From an uncultured Bacteroidota bacterium (GTDB taxonomy: Bacteria; Bacteroidota; Bacteroidia; Bacteroidales; VadinHA17): 64,000 nucleotides of DNA. The position numbers and the translations under genes were made by a program. Every line of letters starts with the position of its first letter. Position 1 is the stretch's first letter. Shown in pieces: positions 39,322-62,003 of the stretch. The stretch spans positions 62,001 to 126,000 of the forward strand of contig CAIJYD010000030.1 of assembly GCA_903824785.1 (NCBI GenBank). The letters run 5' to 3'. The notes beneath the pieces were generated by a model. The model searched no databases. It was not told where the DNA came from and saw nothing but the letters and a program-made list of their open reading frames with translations.

Positions 39322-40191
39322 ATGTCTAAAATCGCCCACAGGATCTTTTTAAGCATATTGGTTGCTATAGTATTTATTACGTTAATAGCCCTTATTTACA
39401 AAGGCATGTCGTACTACGGACTTAGCCTCGAGGAGAGGGTTTATCATCCCGACCATTCCTTGCTTAAACCAAGCGGCACTCTGGGACATGGCCTTGGAAT
39501 AGCCGGTACTATTTTTATGATAATAGGAGTAAGTTCCTATATGGCCCGAAAGAGATTTCGCTTTTTACTGAGGTTAGGGATTTTAAAACACTGGCTGGAA
39601 TTTCATATTTTTCTATGTACACTAGGGCCGATACTGGTTCTTTTCCACACATCTTATAAGTTTGGCGGACTTGTGGCAATAAGTTTCTGGAGCATGGTGG
39701 CTGTTTTCCTCAGCGGTATAATCGGAAGATTTATTTATCTTCAGATTCCCCGGACAATTGAGGGACGTGAATTAAGTTTAAATGAAGTAAGGGGGCTGAA
39801 AGGCGATGTTGCCGGTACAATAAAAAATTCATATAATCTGGATGAAGAGAGCTATAATATCATTGTCGATTCAATCAAGAAAAAATTTGAATTATATCAT
39901 AAAAACGGAATTGTCCGTTATCTAAGAAAATATTCGGATGACCGGAGATCAATCAGGTCAGTAAAAAACGTATTAAAAAAGAACAACCTGCCAAAAACCG
40001 AATGCAATAAGGTGCTGGCGCTGGTAAAAGACGATATAACGCTCAACAGGAGAATTGAAAGGCTCGATACAATGCGTAACCTATTTAAATACTGGCATGT
40101 GGTTCATTCCCCGTTTGCCCTGGTAATGTTGATTATTATGGTTATTCATGTTGCAGTGACTATTGTTTTTGGATATAGATGGATTTTCTGA
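39322..40191 (+). CDS. Di-haem b-type membrane cytochrome
   Basis: 289 residues with about five membrane helices. Two pairs of His with 13-residue spacing are visible: one in EFHIFLCTLGPILVLFHTSY and one in HSPFALVMLIIMVIHV, the pattern for two transmembrane b haems with His-His ligands, as in cytochrome b561/ferric-reductase-like proteins. A soluble loop of about 100 residues (ELSLNEVRGLKG to RIERLDT) separates the pairs, and a further HWLEFH/YWHVVHS element precedes each. The end overlaps the next gene by 13 nt, so the products probably work as one unit, passing electrons between quinone or NAD(P)H and periplasmic cytochromes. Confidence 0.75.
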   Translation: MSKIAHRIFLSILVAIVFITLIALIYKGMSYYGLSLEERVYHPDHSLLKPSGTLGHGLGIAGTIFMIIGVSSYMARKRFRFLLRLGILKHWLEFHIFLCTLGPILVLFHTSYKFGGLVAISFWSMVAVFLSGIIGRFIYLQIPRTIEGRELSLNEVRGLKGDVAGTIKNSYNLDEESYNIIVDSIKKKFELYHKNGIVRYLRKYSDDRRSIRSVKNVLKKNNLPKTECNKVLALVKDDITLNRRIERLDTMRNLFKYWHVVHSPFALVMLIIMVIHVAVTIVFGYRWIF

Positions 40192-41525
40192 TTATGGAAC
40201 AGCTGATTGAAAAAATACTGATTTATTCGCTTGCCATCATTCTCTGCTTTACTATTGTTATGATCTATCTCCGTAAAAAAAGGAGAGAGTCAGGGATTGT
40301 TGAAGAGAAAATCAAAAAAGCAAAGGAAGATGGTCTTCATGAACCAATATCCCTGCATCCTGTAGTTGATGAGAACAGCTGTATCCAGACAGGCGCCTGT
40401 ATAACGGCCTGTCCGGAACACGATATCCTCGGTATAAGAAACGGAAAAGCTACCATTATAAATGCTTCGCAATGCATAGGGCACGGAGCCTGCTTCCATG
40501 CCTGCCCGACAGAAGCTATCAGTTTACGCATCGGTACCGAAAAACGTGGTGTTGATCTTCCGCATGTAAACCAGAACTTCGAAACAAATGTTCCCGGAAT
40601 ATTTATAGCCGGCGAACTCGGAGGAATGGGTCTTATTAAAAATGCTGTGGAACAAGGCAGGCAGGCAGTTGAAAATATTGTTAAATCGCTGAAGAAAGTT
40701 CCGGGAGCTGATTACGATATCATTATCATTGGTGCCGGTCCGGCTGGTATATCCGGTTGCCTGACAGCAAAAAAGAATGGGTTGAATTACCTGCTTCTTG
40801 AACAGGATACCCTCGGAGGCACTGTCTTTACATTTCCCCGTAAAAAAATTGTAATGACATCGCCAATGAATCTTCCGCTTTTCGGCAAAATCAAACTTTT
40901 TGAGACCAGCAAAACCGAGCTTCTCGATTTATGGAATACAGTCCTGAAAAAAAACAACATTTCAGTTAAGGAAAACTCAAAAGTTGAATCAATAGTTTCT
41001 GAAGAGGGAATGTTTAAAGTAGGAACACTAAAAGGCGAGTTGTTCACCTCTTCAACTGTTCTGCTTGCAATAGGAAGGAGGGGAACACCCCGTAAGTTAA
41101 ACATCCCCGGCGAGATGAAAGAGAAGGTAGCCTATCGCCTGCTTGAACCTGAAGATATCAAAGGCAAACATATTATGGTTGCCGGCGGTGGGGACTCAGC
41201 AGTAGAATCGGCGCTGATGCTTGCCGATCAGAACCACGTTATATTATCATACCGGAATGAGGTTTTCAACCGTATTAAACCGCTTAACAGTATGGCCCTG
41301 AACAAGGCTATTGCTGAAGGAAAAATCGAAGTCAGGCTTAGCACAAACCTTTTATCCATTGAAGATGATATCGTTTTGCTTTCATCAGGAAAAGAGGGAG
41401 AGAATATTACATTGAAAAACGACCTCGTTTATATCTTTGCCGGTGGCGAACTGCCAACACAATTCCTCGAAAAGGCAGGAATAAAAATAACAAAGAAATT
41501 CGGGGAAACAGTATTGAAACATTAG
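40179..41525 (+). CDS. Membrane-anchored ferredoxin/FAD oxidoreductase
   Basis: 448 residues: an N-terminal membrane helix (LIYSLAIILCFTIVMIYLRK), then two [4Fe-4S]-type motifs, CIQTGACITACP and CIGHGACFHACP, a segment resembling the flavoprotein C-terminus (PGIFIAGELGGMGLIKNAVEQG), then a thioredoxin-reductase-like flavoprotein with GAGPAGIS for FAD and VAGGGDSAVE for NAD(P)H. The order is unusual: the ferredoxin part comes first and the flavin part second. The redox-active CxxC of thioredoxin reductase is missing, so electrons should go to the Fe-S centres. It starts inside the cytochrome b gene (13-nt overlap; a second ATG at 40194 would sit just after). Probable link between NAD(P)H and the b-type cytochrome. 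Confidence 0.82.
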   Translation: MDFLIMEQLIEKILIYSLAIILCFTIVMIYLRKKRRESGIVEEKIKKAKEDGLHEPISLHPVVDENSCIQTGACITACPEHDILGIRNGKATIINASQCIGHGACFHACPTEAISLRIGTEKRGVDLPHVNQNFETNVPGIFIAGELGGMGLIKNAVEQGRQAVENIVKSLKKVPGADYDIIIIGAGPAGISGCLTAKKNGLNYLLLEQDTLGGTVFTFPRKKIVMTSPMNLPLFGKIKLFETSKTELLDLWNTVLKKNNISVKENSKVESIVSEEGMFKVGTLKGELFTSSTVLLAIGRRGTPRKLNIPGEMKEKVAYRLLEPEDIKGKHIMVAGGGDSAVESALMLADQNHVILSYRNEVFNRIKPLNSMALNKAIAEGKIEVRLSTNLLSIEDDIVLLSSGKEGENITLKNDLVYIFAGGELPTQFLEKAGIKITKKFGETVLKH

Positions 41526-41579
41526 GAGTTTAGTCCTTCAGCATCGTAAAATATGGCCAAAAACAGAATTAATTTTCCC

Positions 41580-41717
41580 CATGAACTCACCCCCTGCTTC
41601 GACTTCGCTCAGCATCCCCCTCTCTGCTCCGCAAAGAGGGGGCGTAACATACTGTATGTCTGAGCATTCCCCCTCTTTGCGGAGCAGAGAGGGGGAAAAG
41701 AAGGGGGTGAGTTCATG
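41580..41717. repeat. 138-bp nested inverted-repeat element
   Basis: Outer arms of 16 bp (41580-41595 and 41702-41717) are perfect complements, and an inner pair of 27 bp (41616-41642 and 41669-41695) is also perfect, with a loop holding the near palindrome ACATACTGTATGT. The arms each can also fold alone (CCCCTCT / AGAGGGG). There is no ORF in it. It lies between the oxidoreductase and the multihaem cytochrome genes, so it could end or attenuate transcription, or be a non-autonomous mobile repeat. Confidence 0.8.
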
Positions 41718-41796
41718 AGAACTGAGAAGATTGCAGAGATCCATAAACAAAAGAAGTAAAATAAGAGAGTTTAGAGTGAAAAATGAAAAATAAAAA

Positions 41797-43380
41797 GTGA
41801 AGAGATCCGGAATCCTGATATTGTTATGGTTATCAGTCATTAAGGTGGCTGCACAGCTTTCCCCCGGCGACTTGTCTAAACCCCATTCGCACCTTGAGGG
41901 TATGTCAAATTGTACACAATGCCATGTGCTGGGAAATAAAGTATCGGGCGAAAAATGTCTTGTCTGCCATACTGAAGTTCAGAAGAGAATAGCACTTCAG
42001 AAGGGCTATCACTCTTCATCCGATGTAAAGGGAAAAGAGTGTTTCTCCTGTCACAGCGAACATAACGGCAAAAATTTTCAGCTTATCCGGCTCGATACTG
42101 CAAAATTCGATCACAACATTACCGGCTTTGCTTTAACTGCGCCCCATGCAAAAAAAGGATGCAGAGACTGTCATGCCGGTAAATACATTGAAGATCAGAA
42201 ACTTAAAGTTAAAAAGAGCACTTATCTTGGCGTAAGCCCGGCTTGTCTGAACTGCCATGTAGATAATCATCAGAAGACACTCTCTCCTGATTGCCTGAAC
42301 TGCCATAACTCTGATTCCTTTAAACCGGCATCAAAATTTAACCATTCCACTGCAAGATTTCAACTGACCGGGAAACATATGAATGTCGATTGTCTGAAAT
42401 GCCATAAGGTGGAAATGATAAACGGGAAGAAGTATCAGGAATTCCGTGGGATGCCATTCAGCACCTGTGTTAATTGCCATAAAGATCCTCATAACAATAA
42501 ATTTGGTCTGGATTGCAAACAATGTCATAATGAAGATTCTTTCCAGGTTGTTAAAGGGGTTAAAGGTTTCGATCATAATAAAACAAATTACAAACTTGAA
42601 GGGAAACATCTGGCTGTCAATTGCAAAGCCTGCCACAAAACAAAATTTACTGACCCGTTAAAGCATGAACGTTGCATCGATTGCCATACCGATTACCACA
42701 AGAAACAGTTTACCAGGAACGGAATAACACCCGATTGCTCACAGTGTCATAGCGTTAAGGGATTTACACTTTTCTCCTATACAACCGAACAACATAATCT
42801 TGGCACTTTTCCTCTTCAGGGTTCACACAATGCAGTACCCTGTTTTGAGTGTCATAAGAAGAAGGAGGGCTGGAACTTCCGTTCAATCGGAATTAATTGC
42901 AGGGATTGTCACACCGATATCCATAAGCAATCTATTCAGGCCAAATATTATCCTGATGCCAATTGCAAAATGTGTCATACTGAAAACAGGTGGACCGATG
43001 TCACTTTCAACCATTCAATAACAGAATTTAACCTTACGGGAGCCCATACCAGACAAGCCTGCCGGGCCTGCCATTTAAAAAAGGATTCGAATGGAACAAC
43101 CCAGCTGAAATTTTCAGGAGTGCAGAAGAGCTGTACAAGCTGCCACACCGATAACCATTTTAAACAATTTGAGAAAAACGGCGTTACCGATTGCATCAGC
43201 TGCCACGATACTGAAAACTGGAAAGCTCCTAAATTCGATCACAATAATACTGCCTTCAGGCTCGATGGGAAACATATTAATGTGCCTTGTATGAAATGTC
43301 ATAAGCCGCAGCAGGAAGGGTCAGTTATTTATGTCAAGTATAAAATAAAAGAATTCAAATGCGAATCCTGTCACTCCTGA
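41797..43380 (+). CDS. Exported 20-haem c-type cytochrome
   Basis: 527 residues with a short signal peptide (GILILLWLSVIKVAAQ). Twenty CxxCH haem c sites are present, the first being CTQCH and the last CESCH two residues from the C-terminus. The repeated unit is of the cytochrome c3/NrfB-like type, with phrases such as FNHSTARFQLTGKHMNVDC repeated between haem pairs, so each block also provides distal His ligands. GTG start at 41797; no ATG precedes. The end overlaps the next cytochrome gene by 22 nt. The likely role is long-distance electron transport in the periplasm and to the outer membrane. Confidence 0.9.
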   Translation: MKRSGILILLWLSVIKVAAQLSPGDLSKPHSHLEGMSNCTQCHVLGNKVSGEKCLVCHTEVQKRIALQKGYHSSSDVKGKECFSCHSEHNGKNFQLIRLDTAKFDHNITGFALTAPHAKKGCRDCHAGKYIEDQKLKVKKSTYLGVSPACLNCHVDNHQKTLSPDCLNCHNSDSFKPASKFNHSTARFQLTGKHMNVDCLKCHKVEMINGKKYQEFRGMPFSTCVNCHKDPHNNKFGLDCKQCHNEDSFQVVKGVKGFDHNKTNYKLEGKHLAVNCKACHKTKFTDPLKHERCIDCHTDYHKKQFTRNGITPDCSQCHSVKGFTLFSYTTEQHNLGTFPLQGSHNAVPCFECHKKKEGWNFRSIGINCRDCHTDIHKQSIQAKYYPDANCKMCHTENRWTDVTFNHSITEFNLTGAHTRQACRACHLKKDSNGTTQLKFSGVQKSCTSCHTDNHFKQFEKNGVTDCISCHDTENWKAPKFDHNNTAFRLDGKHINVPCMKCHKPQQEGSVIYVKYKIKEFKCESCHS

Positions 43381-44384
43381 TCTTCTATATAATACTTTTC
43401 TTATTTAACCGGCAGACCGATCAGCCGCATGGTCCCGGTTTTAAGATCAGCTGCAATACCTGCCACAGTTCAAAAGGGTGGAAGCTTGATAAAGAAATAT
43501 ACTCCTTCGACCACAATACCACCAAACTGCCACTGACAGGTCAGCATTCCGGCACCGACTGCAGGCTTTGCCACCGGACGCTTATTTTTTCGGAGGCAAA
43601 AGCAGAGTGCAACGACTGCCATAATGATGTTCATCAGGCAACAACAGGAGGTGATTGTTCCCGTTGTCATACCTCTTCATCATGGCTTGTAAACAATATA
43701 AACGAAATCCACCAGACAAGCCGTTTTCCATTGACAGGAGCGCACAGAACTGCTGATTGCTATAAATGTCATAAGTCGGAAAGCCTGGCACGCTTCGATG
43801 TTCCCGGAATTAATTGTATTGACTGCCACCGCGAAACATATATGACAACAACAGCTCCTGATCATATACAAGCCGGTTATTCAGAGGATTGCTCGTCCTG
43901 TCACCCTCTAAACGCATTTCAATGGGCCGGAGCAGGATTTAATCATAATTTTTTCTCTCTGGCACAAGGACATGCCGGAGCAAAATGTGCCGATTGTCAT
44001 TTGAATGGAAATTACAAATCCACATCTCCCGATTGCTATTCGTGTCACAAGGCTGATTTTGAAAATACTACCAATCCCGACCACCAGACATTGAATTTTT
44101 CTGTTACCTGTTCACAATGTCATACTTTGAATCCCGGATGGAAACCTGCACCATATAAGGAACACGACAGCAAATCGTTTCCGATTTACAGCGGAGAACA
44201 CAGGGGAGAATGGAGTTCATGTACCGAATGCCATCCAAATACCTCTGATTACGCAGCATACAGCTGTATTATATGCCACGAACATAACCAGAGCAGCATG
44301 GATAGCAAACACAGAGGCAGAAGTAATTATTCATACGATAGTGCAGCATGTTTCAGATGTCATCCACGTGGAATATCAGATTAA
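43359..44384 (+). CDS. Exported 13-haem c-type cytochrome
   Basis: 341 residues, hydrophobic N-terminus (ILSLLIFYIILFLFNRQ) as signal or anchor. Thirteen CxxCH motifs, starting CNTCH and ending CFRCH, in the same repeat style as the upstream protein (FDHNTTKLPLTGQHSGTDC). It overlaps the 20-haem gene by 22 nt and precedes the barrel gene by 8 bp. The two cytochromes are related and probably arose by duplication of shared blocks. Likely partner in the same electron conduit. Confidence 0.9.
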   Translation: MRILSLLIFYIILFLFNRQTDQPHGPGFKISCNTCHSSKGWKLDKEIYSFDHNTTKLPLTGQHSGTDCRLCHRTLIFSEAKAECNDCHNDVHQATTGGDCSRCHTSSSWLVNNINEIHQTSRFPLTGAHRTADCYKCHKSESLARFDVPGINCIDCHRETYMTTTAPDHIQAGYSEDCSSCHPLNAFQWAGAGFNHNFFSLAQGHAGAKCADCHLNGNYKSTSPDCYSCHKADFENTTNPDHQTLNFSVTCSQCHTLNPGWKPAPYKEHDSKSFPIYSGEHRGEWSSCTECHPNTSDYAAYSCIICHEHNQSSMDSKHRGRSNYSYDSAACFRCHPRGISD

Positions 44385-44392
44385 TTATTTTT

Positions 44393-46003
44393 ATGAGGCA
44401 ATTAAGATTCATATTTCTCCTGTTAACTGTTTTTGGCGAACTCACCGGACAGTCATTGACTGAAAATGTACCAGGGAAGGTATCGTTTATCAGCTCACAA
44501 AATATCTATGTAAAGTTTAAGTCAACTGCAGGGATCTCTACCGGGGATACTCTTTTTGTATCAGCAGGAAATACTCTTATTCCTGTAATGACAGTTAAAA
44601 ACCTTTCGTCGGTATCCTGCGTCTGCACCGCTATTTCTGAAGCAAATCTTCAGGTTGACAAAATTATTATTGCAAAAGCAAAGATAATCACTCCGCAGGC
44701 GGAGAAAACAGCAGTTGCTGTTAAACCACAGGAAAACCAGGTAAAGAAAGTATTATCTGATTCTCTTAAAAAAGATGAAGTTAAAAATGAACTGAAACAA
44801 AGAATAAAAGGAAGCCTCTCTGCATCTTCATATTCTGACTTCTCAAATACTTCCGCCTCTAATTCAAACCGGTTCCGATATACTCTTTCTCTTGATGCCA
44901 GAAATATAGCAGACTCAAAGTTTTCCGTTGACAGCTACATCTCCTTCAAACATAAAGCGGGTGACTGGGGAGAGGTGAAGAGTAATCTGTTCAGTGCTCT
45001 TAAAATCTATAACCTTTCTGTCAGATACGATGTAAATAAAACCACTCAGATAAGTCTTGGCCGTAAAATAAATTCCAGAATATCAAATATTGGAGCAATG
45101 GACGGCCTGCAGTTTGAGAAATCAATAAATAACTTTTCAATGGGAGCCATTGCCGGAACCCGGCCCGATTATACTGACTATGGTTTCGACAGTAAACTGC
45201 TTCAATATGGTGCCTATGTCGGATATAGTTCAAAGAAAACCGGTATTACCAATGAAAGTTCACTGGCATTCATGCAGCAGACGAACAATTCAAAGACAGA
45301 CAGGAGGTTCATATATCTTCAGCATTCAAACTCAATAGTTAAAAACCTCTACTTCTTCAGTACATTCGAAGTTGACCTTTATAAACTTACCAGCGATTCA
45401 TTACCTCAGAATACCTTCAACCCAACAGGCATGTATCTTTCGTTAAGATATAAGATCACAAAAAACATTTCATTATCAGGGTCTTACGATGCCCGAAAAA
45501 ATATAATGTATTATGAAACTTACAAAACATATATCGACAGGATCCTGGAAACAGAGTTGCGTCAGGGTTTCAGGTTTCAGGTTAATTACCGTATAACAAA
45601 GGATATTATGGTTGGAGTGCAATCGGGCTATCGTTTTCTTAAATCAGATCCCCATCCATCGAAAAATGCCTATGGTTATCTCACCTACAGCAGGATTCCG
45701 GGAGTTAATATCTCAGCCACACTCTCTGCAACATTACTGGAATCAAATTATATGAATGGAAAAATTCTGGGCTTAAGTATCTCCCGCGAACTATTCAAAG
45801 GAAAACTAAGTACAGACATTGGCTACCGTTATGTTGATTACAGATTGCCTGAAAACTTACTAAATATCAGGCAGAGCATTGCTGAAATGAATCTCTCATG
45901 GCAGATATTTAAGAACCTGTCACTTTCAATGAATTACGAAGGAACCTTCGAAAAGCTGGATAAGTATAACAGGATCTATCTGCAGGTGAGAAAAAGATTC
46001 TGA
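44393..46003 (+). CDS. Outer-membrane beta-barrel-like protein with N-terminal domain
   Basis: 537 residues; signal peptide RQLRFIFLLLTVFGELTGQ. A small domain (VPGKVSFISSQNIYVKFKST to IIAKAK, residues about 25-100) is followed by a low-complexity linker (residues about 100-140, Lys/Val/Gln-rich) and then about 390 residues of alternating amphipathic strands with aromatic ends, finishing LSMNYEGTFEKLDKYN and the terminal KRF, typical of outer-membrane barrels. Start at ATG 44393. Its position after two multihaem cytochromes suggests the barrel through which electrons cross the outer membrane (inference). Confidence 0.75.
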   Translation: MRQLRFIFLLLTVFGELTGQSLTENVPGKVSFISSQNIYVKFKSTAGISTGDTLFVSAGNTLIPVMTVKNLSSVSCVCTAISEANLQVDKIIIAKAKIITPQAEKTAVAVKPQENQVKKVLSDSLKKDEVKNELKQRIKGSLSASSYSDFSNTSASNSNRFRYTLSLDARNIADSKFSVDSYISFKHKAGDWGEVKSNLFSALKIYNLSVRYDVNKTTQISLGRKINSRISNIGAMDGLQFEKSINNFSMGAIAGTRPDYTDYGFDSKLLQYGAYVGYSSKKTGITNESSLAFMQQTNNSKTDRRFIYLQHSNSIVKNLYFFSTFEVDLYKLTSDSLPQNTFNPTGMYLSLRYKITKNISLSGSYDARKNIMYYETYKTYIDRILETELRQGFRFQVNYRITKDIMVGVQSGYRFLKSDPHPSKNAYGYLTYSRIPGVNISATLSATLLESNYMNGKILGLSISRELFKGKLSTDIGYRYVDYRLPENLLNIRQSIAEMNLSWQIFKNLSLSMNYEGTFEKLDKYNRIYLQVRKRF

Positions 46004-61983: not shown

Positions 61984-62003
61984 CCTCGCTGCTTGCCGCG
62001 GGG
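61984..62003. repeat. REP-like hairpin upstream of the PAS fragment
   Basis: CCTCGCTGCTTGCCGCGGGG folds into an imperfect G+C-rich hairpin. When read as protein on the minus strand it gives NETPRGKQRGIL, which is a recurring false N-terminus in Bacteroidota ORFs, as I recall, and suggests a multicopy intergenic repeat. Confidence 0.4.

Follow-up and report, generated by a model that had tools for sequence, protein, structure and literature searches.

A conserved five-gene cluster of Bacteroidota as a probable NAD(P)H-fed electron conduit across the cell envelope, with a putative outer cytochrome that varies by triheme modules

A cluster of five genes in an uncultured Bacteroidota bacterium (VadinHA17 lineage; assembly GCA_903824785.1, contig CAIJYD010000030.1) probably encodes a trans-envelope electron conduit of the porin-cytochrome kind, in which electrons would pass from NAD(P)H through a flavoprotein (F) and an inner-membrane cytochrome b (b) to a 20-haem cytochrome (P), and from there to a second multihaem cytochrome (X) seated in an outer-membrane barrel (O) and so to the outside, likely for the removal of surplus reductant. 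The genes lie in a window of 64,000 nucleotides (positions 62,001 to 126,000 of the contig), which is the whole stretch of DNA that was analysed and to which all positions given for the cluster refer. Similar clusters recur across the phylum, and the haem numbers of X mostly follow a triheme rule, from short to very long forms.

In the open reading frame (ORF) listing of the window, b, F, P, X and O all lie on the + strand between 39322 and 46003 (Table 1). An earlier sequence-only reading of this DNA had described five co-directional genes with overlaps of 13 and 22 nt and a gap of 8 bp, and the ORF coordinates bear this out: the overlaps are those of b with F (40179-40191) and of P with X (43359-43380), and the gap separates X from O (44385-44392, given a barrel start at the ATG at 44393). 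Its attribution of 20 and 13 haems to P and X likewise agrees with our counts of the haem-binding motif CXXCH (20 and 13), so named on the assumption that every site would receive a haem. A six-frame scan of the window found no CXXCH in other open stretches longer than 60 aa. A chance run of CXXCH was considered as an explanation and rejected.

Table 1. Features of the cluster and of the gap within it
Feature	Position	Strand	Evidence
Gene b: inner-membrane cytochrome b, 289 aa (putative)	39322..40191	+	motifs, helix model
Gene F: membrane-anchored Fe-S flavoprotein, 448 aa (predicted)	40179..41525	+	Pfam domains, hydrophobic N-terminus
Dispersed palindromic repeat in the F-P gap	41570..41730	.	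43 matching pieces in own genome
Gene P: 20-haem cytochrome c, 527 aa, putative periplasmic bridge	41797..43380	+	CXXCH count, Cytochrome_C7
Gene X: 13-haem cytochrome c, 341 aa, putative outward wire	43359..44384	+	CXXCH count, spacings
Gene O: predicted outer-membrane barrel, 536 aa	44393..46003	+	AlphaFold2 model, fold matches

The five genes cluster far beyond chance. We collected 128 unique related loci, that is, the DNA around relatives from same-order genomes, named contigs and a phylum sample, with six duplicates dropped for a shared protein stretch and seven loci of the own genome left out. All five gene types stand side by side in 86 of them. The sequence-only reading had suggested a search for the same gene order, and the order b-F-P-X-O does recur, in 64 of the 128 loci; 13 more show it apart from an additional X or a split gene, and in 9 loci F has moved to the other end (b-P-X(-X)-O-F). 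Because F is kept even where it has moved, it looks like a true part of the cluster. Most of the other 42 loci (36) reach or nearly reach the edge, which here means the end of the stretch read and not necessarily that of the contig. Departures from the pattern include b alone in two loci (L178 and L193) and an unmatched ORF of 536-605 aa at the position of O in four (L186, L190, L191 and L192); L061 lacks b only in its ORF table, and tblastn shows b in its apparent counterpart L117. The genes take a second order, with F last or nearly last, in L179-L181, L183-L188, L190-L192 and L194; some of these loci have an additional 9- or 10-haem X, and O is there very divergent or not recognised.

What is known of electron conduits comes mostly from Proteobacteria and Geobacter, and the sequence-only reading had noted that they are rarely described in Bacteroidota; gene b was nevertheless found in 40 of 395 sampled Bacteroidota genomes, own genome included. 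In the same sample MtrB_PioB appeared once, as a single strong match that is also the sole positive control of a scan in which none of 14 control genomes matched. Gene O was matched in 29 of 247 same-order genomes, the own genome among them and the other 28 at 40-51% identity. Even close relatives can do without the set: O is missing from the genome sampled for the genus (G112) and from that sampled for the family (G212). Against named bacterial and archaeal contigs, the profile of b recovered at least 544 relatives. The named-contig loci are the best 80 of these and are therefore near relatives; all are titled as Bacteroidota groups except two labelled 'uncultured bacterium' and one 'Chlorobiota bacterium'. 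In Emticicia oligotrophica DSM 17448, a type strain in culture, the cluster lies on plasmid pEMTOL02 (EMTOL_RS21085-RS21110) and follows a haem-ligation gene of CcsA/ResB type.

The likely entry point of the conduit is F, which has Fer4_10 and Pyr_redox_3 domains (both over cut-off) in the order hydrophobic segment (residues 13-31), ferredoxin-type domain and FAD/NAD(P) domain. Its relatives among structures in the Protein Data Bank are of the TrxR/FNR type, and the hydrophobic N-terminal segment is present in all 74 relatives of F. In both ferredoxin-type motifs the second cysteine is replaced (residues 71 and 102). Across the relatives this position holds T or S in the first motif (79/79) and His in the second (77/79, of which 8 were read by eye), and F is therefore likely to carry unusual Fe-S clusters, perhaps one of them His-ligated. 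An assignment of F to the YpdA bacillithiol disulfide reductases was rejected, since TIGR04018 scored 160.2 bits against a cut-off of 339.9.

Gene b has two WX3HX13H motifs (W91-X3-H95-X13-H109 and W258-X3-H262-X13-H276) and an SGXXG motif (S131GIIG135), all kept in 81 of 81 relatives, and its product would bind two b haems. It exceeds the cut-off of no curated family in Pfam or NCBIfam, and PF01794 gave no match at E 0.1. A structural model of modest confidence (pLDDT 74.8, pTM 0.59) shows five membrane-type helices, with the HX13H pairs placed on helices 3 and 5; a fold search with it returned no fold match (best E 0.62), and the profile of b found only 13 chance-level matches among solved structures, none of them a cytochrome. 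Distant homologues, each with two HX13H pairs, occur on plasmids of Methylophaga, Spirosoma, Sphingobium and Acetobacter (L075-L078), where each adjoins a 7-haem cytochrome among metal-resistance genes. Homology to b is put at 98.8% by profile comparison for Methylophaga, the one plasmid so compared. The neighbouring genes include a FAD/NAD/2Fe-2S protein in Methylophaga (Pfam) and, by annotation, a FAD-type oxidoreductase in Spirosoma and a 2Fe-2S protein in Acetobacter; beside the Sphingobium homologue no flavo- or 2Fe-2S protein is annotated. As a side observation, a short HX13H cytochrome b together with a 7-haem cytochrome may form a small transmembrane redox module on these plasmids.

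The two cytochromes both match Cytochrome_C7 (PF14522; P 78.5 and X 45.3 bits, cut-off 24.8) and are homologous to each other by profile comparison. The best solved relative found with the P profile is 3ov0 (E 6.8e-9), which we take to be the Geobacter dodecahaem GSU1996. P is the more constant of the two: 89 of 117 ORFs have 20 haem sites and 18 have 23 (107/117 together), while the ten odd ORFs comprise three with 19 and seven pieces or short forms (two each in L106, L122 and L174, and one in L137). In the named set, 15 loci have a 23-haem P, namely eight titled Saprospiraceae, Emticicia and six others; these eight are all of the uncut Saprospiraceae-titled loci.

X ranges from 9 to 64 haems (116 ORFs) and varies by whole triheme modules. 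Its haem number, which depends on accepting CX3CH and CX4CH sites, leaves a remainder of one on division by three in 105 of the 116 ORFs, against 87 on CXXCH alone; with the moduli 2, 4 and 5, the commonest remainder accounts for 71, 45 and 33 ORFs, respectively. The 11 exceptions are four split-looking ORFs (two each in L048 and L131), three 9-haem second copies (L185, L186 and L188) and four others (L060, L063, L090 and L125). The spacings of the haem sites point to the source of this arithmetic. The X of the window begins with a seven-haem head (36-16-16-34-19-25) and continues with two modules (32-16-25 and 37-15-28), and other X proteins appear to be built alike, as a head followed by triheme modules spaced ~32-16-25. 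The head signature is matched within 2 residues at every spacing in 81 of 116 X, and the module spacing fits in 543 of the 546 modules counted behind these matching heads. Most X that depart from the exact signature miss one spacing; it is absent in the 10-haem X of L179-L181 and in the long X of L179. When 13- and 16-haem forms of X are aligned, they differ by a single clean insertion of ~72 residues. Two long X genes were examined for tandem DNA repeats, with recent head-to-tail copies in that of L054 (period 429 bp, 2.7 copies, 89% matches) and none in that of L147. The sequence-only reading had pictured a 13-haem protein plugging the barrel; since the family extends to 64 haems, the X of the window is a short form and not the general case.

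The triheme rule is not merely inherited from a few ancestors. On a tree of b and F (one FastTree, midpoint rooted; 72 loci, in each of which b, F, P and X are single and uncut, and 70 of which have an X of remainder one), the haem count of X changes at least 46 times and its remainder only twice, from which this conclusion follows. Among 24 sister pairs X differs in 16, by a multiple of three in 15 of these. Among the values listed for shuffled labels, X shows 50-57 changes and P 7-9; consequently, the 7 changes of P on the tree reflect the small number of loci that differ and not strong inheritance.

A second X occurs in the own genome on contig C47 (L067:2-2515, - strand), with the same head, nine modules and 34 CXXCH; the other four cluster genes are absent from the 12 kb read around it. 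This gene runs off the contig end, and near-identical modules may have caused the assembly break.

For O, the AlphaFold2 model (mean pLDDT 84.0, pTM 0.63) predicts a small N-terminal beta domain (~23-97), a loose linker and 22 strands (137-535), as counted from the DSSP list and with barrel closure left unchecked. Occ-type porins are the highest-scoring fold matches (Z 18.9, ~270 residues aligned), with TonB-receptor and SusC barrels scoring only a little lower; 322-352 residues align with TonB-receptor, SusC-type and usher barrels. MtrB is not among the 50 fold matches listed per search, which excludes nothing. No domain of O plugs the barrel in the model. Left open, a pore of this width would be a large hole, and some occupant is therefore to be expected; the seven-haem head of X is the candidate and an end of P the alternative. 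Modelled by itself, O shows no interface with a cytochrome, which counts neither for nor against such an occupant.

Taken together, these features suggest the following route. NAD(P)H would reduce the FAD of F at the inner membrane, whose Fe-S clusters would pass electrons to the cytoplasmic-side haem of b, and b would carry them across the membrane to its own periplasmic-side haem. P could then bridge the periplasm as a 20-haem wire, and the near-constant head of X could dock to P, to the barrel or to both. X would take the electrons through the outer membrane, and its triheme modules would extend outward as a wire whose length differs between lineages. Outward flow would store no energy at b, because electrons leave the negative side of the membrane, as in NADPH oxidases. 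We therefore read the system as a sink for reductant or a means of mobilising minerals; the former is the most likely use, with Fe(III) or Mn(IV) minerals, humics, electrodes or partner cells as possible acceptors. Two further observations count for a conduit: haem-ligation genes accompany the cluster (CcsA/ResB in Emticicia), and the distant homologues of b sit beside 7-haem cytochromes and, in three of four cases, a flavo- or 2Fe-2S protein. A course that starts at NAD(P)H, crosses the inner membrane and runs along multihaem wires to a barrel in the outer membrane, as first proposed in the sequence-only reading, thus remains the best account of the cluster.

Several points weigh against it. 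Emticicia and Saprospiraceae are aerobes, which makes for a poorer fit with a purely anaerobic electron sink. The model of b has no fold match and its confidence is modest, and O resembles large barrels in general, with porins scoring highest. None of 92 X has a lipobox-like motif, a loosely signal-peptidase-like site is seen in 60 of the 92, and no recognised surface-export signal was found, so that we infer exposure of X at the cell surface.

Three other explanations deserve consideration. The same conduit could run inward, from an extracellular donor such as Fe(II), a mineral or a partner cell through X, O and P to b and F, and on to quinone or NADP+. This we regard as unlikely: F belongs to a type (TrxR/FNR) that oxidises NAD(P)H, and an inward flow to NADP+ would have to go uphill at the inner membrane, as is well established, although multihaem wires are in principle two-way and some carriers are aerobes. 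The nearest described layout, the putative porin-cytochrome complex PCC3 of iron oxidisers, was itself proposed for iron oxidation by He et al. 2017 (PMC5566968). The same paper models the inner-membrane protein of PCC3 and PCC4 as quinone-active, and PCC3 as described there has four genes and no flavoprotein, which would suit a quinone-fed conduit in which quinol is oxidised by b and F has no more than a tuning or regulatory part. The constant membrane anchor of F (74/74) and its retention in both gene orders speak against such a subordinate role, and we consider it improbable. Finally, P and X could store charge or feed a periplasmic reductase, with O an ordinary porin that entered the operon by chance, as its similarity to large porins and the missing surface signal of X would allow; we judge this very improbable, given the clustering of O with these genes in 86 of 128 loci, the lack of a terminal reductase among the 12 largest flanking families listed (by reading), and the 61-64-haem forms of X, which if extended would exceed the length of the periplasm at the ~1 nm per haem of a multihaem chain. 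A role for the cytochromes as partners of a nitrite or tetrathionate reductase was rejected, as neither enzyme is among those 12 families (602 flanking ORFs, 81 loci; by reading).

Within the reading of the cluster as an outward conduit, P may span the periplasm and X may reach outward. From this we advance a bolder proposal, which is possible and which we hold tentatively, that the system is a phylum-wide, NAD(P)H-driven extracellular wire in which P serves as an inter-membrane ruler of 20 (or 23) haems and X as an outward antenna, with its seven-haem head and n modules (n ~1-19), in which gain and loss of whole modules would let each lineage adjust how far its cells reach. If P is a ruler, the periplasm of 23-haem carriers should be about one module wider, and the coexistence of 20- and 23-haem forms makes this question directly testable; if X is an antenna, its length would set the distance of electron transfer. 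X offers a natural length series of cytochrome wires, from ~10 to 64 haems in triheme steps, in which reach and charge storage are the alternatives to be distinguished. Gene b is found in about a tenth of sampled Bacteroidota genomes; the cluster could provide a marker set for electroactive Bacteroidota, and E. oligotrophica DSM 17448 is a cultured carrier for tests.

At the locus itself, the F-P gap of 271 bp (41526-41796) contains the dispersed palindromic repeat, and F and P overlap or lie no more than ~50 bp apart in 23 of 24 relatives checked; the repeat is an insertion and is not thought to be part of the machine. A function for the gap was accordingly rejected. Lying inside the operon, the repeat could affect transcription from F to P. 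The neighbours are seemingly unrelated to the cluster, with Amj, a SanA-like protein and an anaerobic sulfatase maturase upstream, a pentapeptide-repeat protein downstream and, by reading of the ORF list, sulfatase-like ORFs farther out on both flanks. Some side genes accompany the cluster elsewhere. An ORF that looks membrane-anchored and of TPR type, a name resting on weak profile scores only, immediately follows b in 14 of the 26 phylum loci (L171:10736-11329 and 13 similar) and is possibly a haem-ligation helper. A lipoprotein-like ORF of ~244 aa, which matches nothing in Pfam or NCBIfam, stands close to the cluster in 21 of the 81 named loci (for example L090:17874-18608), and the barrel of Emticicia has a 'GW dipeptide domain' protein behind it. 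The own genome also encodes two odd fusions (L070:8893-10413 and L073:8006-9565) of an NrfH/NapC-like N-terminus with 4 CXXCH to a GldK/EgtB-like C-terminal domain.

Among known systems, MtrAB, MtoAB and PioAB share with this cluster the combination of a multihaem cytochrome and a large outer-membrane barrel, and the sequence-only reading had taken MtrAB as the layout parallel while seeing no MtrA or MtrB homologues. The latter observation is upheld by the profiles, on which an Mtr-type conduit was rejected: O has no PF11854 match at E 0.1 and aligns with one Bacteroidota MtrB at an hhalign probability of 0.8%, and P, with its 20 haems, reaches 51 bits against a cut-off of 192.2 for the DmsE/MtrA decahaem profile. 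The OmbB-OmaB-OmcB conduit of Geobacter follows the same general plan of barrel, periplasmic cytochrome and outer cytochrome, and is likened here by plan alone; conduits of this type are reported in Ignavibacteria, and outer cytochromes of Burkholderiales vary by inserted CxxCH domains (PMC7399161). The triheme c7 polymers (3ov0) share the triheme repeat with P and X, which differ in belonging to a membrane-to-outside gene set and in scoring below the nanowire_3heme cut-off (TIGR04257; P 15.1 and X 15.3 bits, cut-off 40). With NADPH oxidases and the ferric reductase domain (FRD), the cluster shares two HX13H pairs, in b, and an NAD(P)H/FAD partner; He et al. noted such pairs for the PCC3 protein too (PMC5566968). 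Here, however, b lacks PF01794, and F stands apart as a flavoprotein of TrxR type that has Fe-S clusters.

Of the layouts described so far, PCC3 comes nearest, closer than MtrAB, by layout and motif description and not by sequence homology of the parts. According to He et al. (PMC5566968), PCC3 likewise combines in one cluster a barrel, an inner-membrane protein and two large multihaem cytochromes, one periplasmic with ~20-plus haems and one of very variable number, which parallel P and X; its inner-membrane protein of ~300 aa has the two WX3HX13H motifs and SGXXG found in all 81 relatives of b. Unlike the present cluster, it is reported there from Alpha-, Beta- and Gammaproteobacteria and lacks the NAD(P)H-type F. 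Up to 42 strands are predicted for its porins, a number that varies and was obtained by other prediction means than the 22 of O. Our plasmid searches with P and O recovered the Emticicia cluster (P also two partial matches), with no proteobacterial PCC3 among the matches. In Gallionellaceae, as given in PMC10734462, the periplasmic cytochrome of PCC3 has 21, 24 or 27 haems and the outer ones 10-16, 18, 15, 17 and 26-35, without the triheme step of X. For one anode-enriched Bacteroidetes genome, PMC8258643 reports six multihaem cytochromes clustered with a barrel, an uncharacterised set that may or may not be the same system. In the literature on Bacteroidota electron transfer, PCC3 and triheme modularity, including the accessible part of PMC9769843 and with most subscription papers outside the search, we found no description of the five-gene set or the triheme rule. 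As read here, the system resembles the PCC3-like kind of conduit already known, and differs from it in the flavoprotein of its five-gene set in Bacteroidota and in a putative outer cytochrome whose length varies in steps of three haems.

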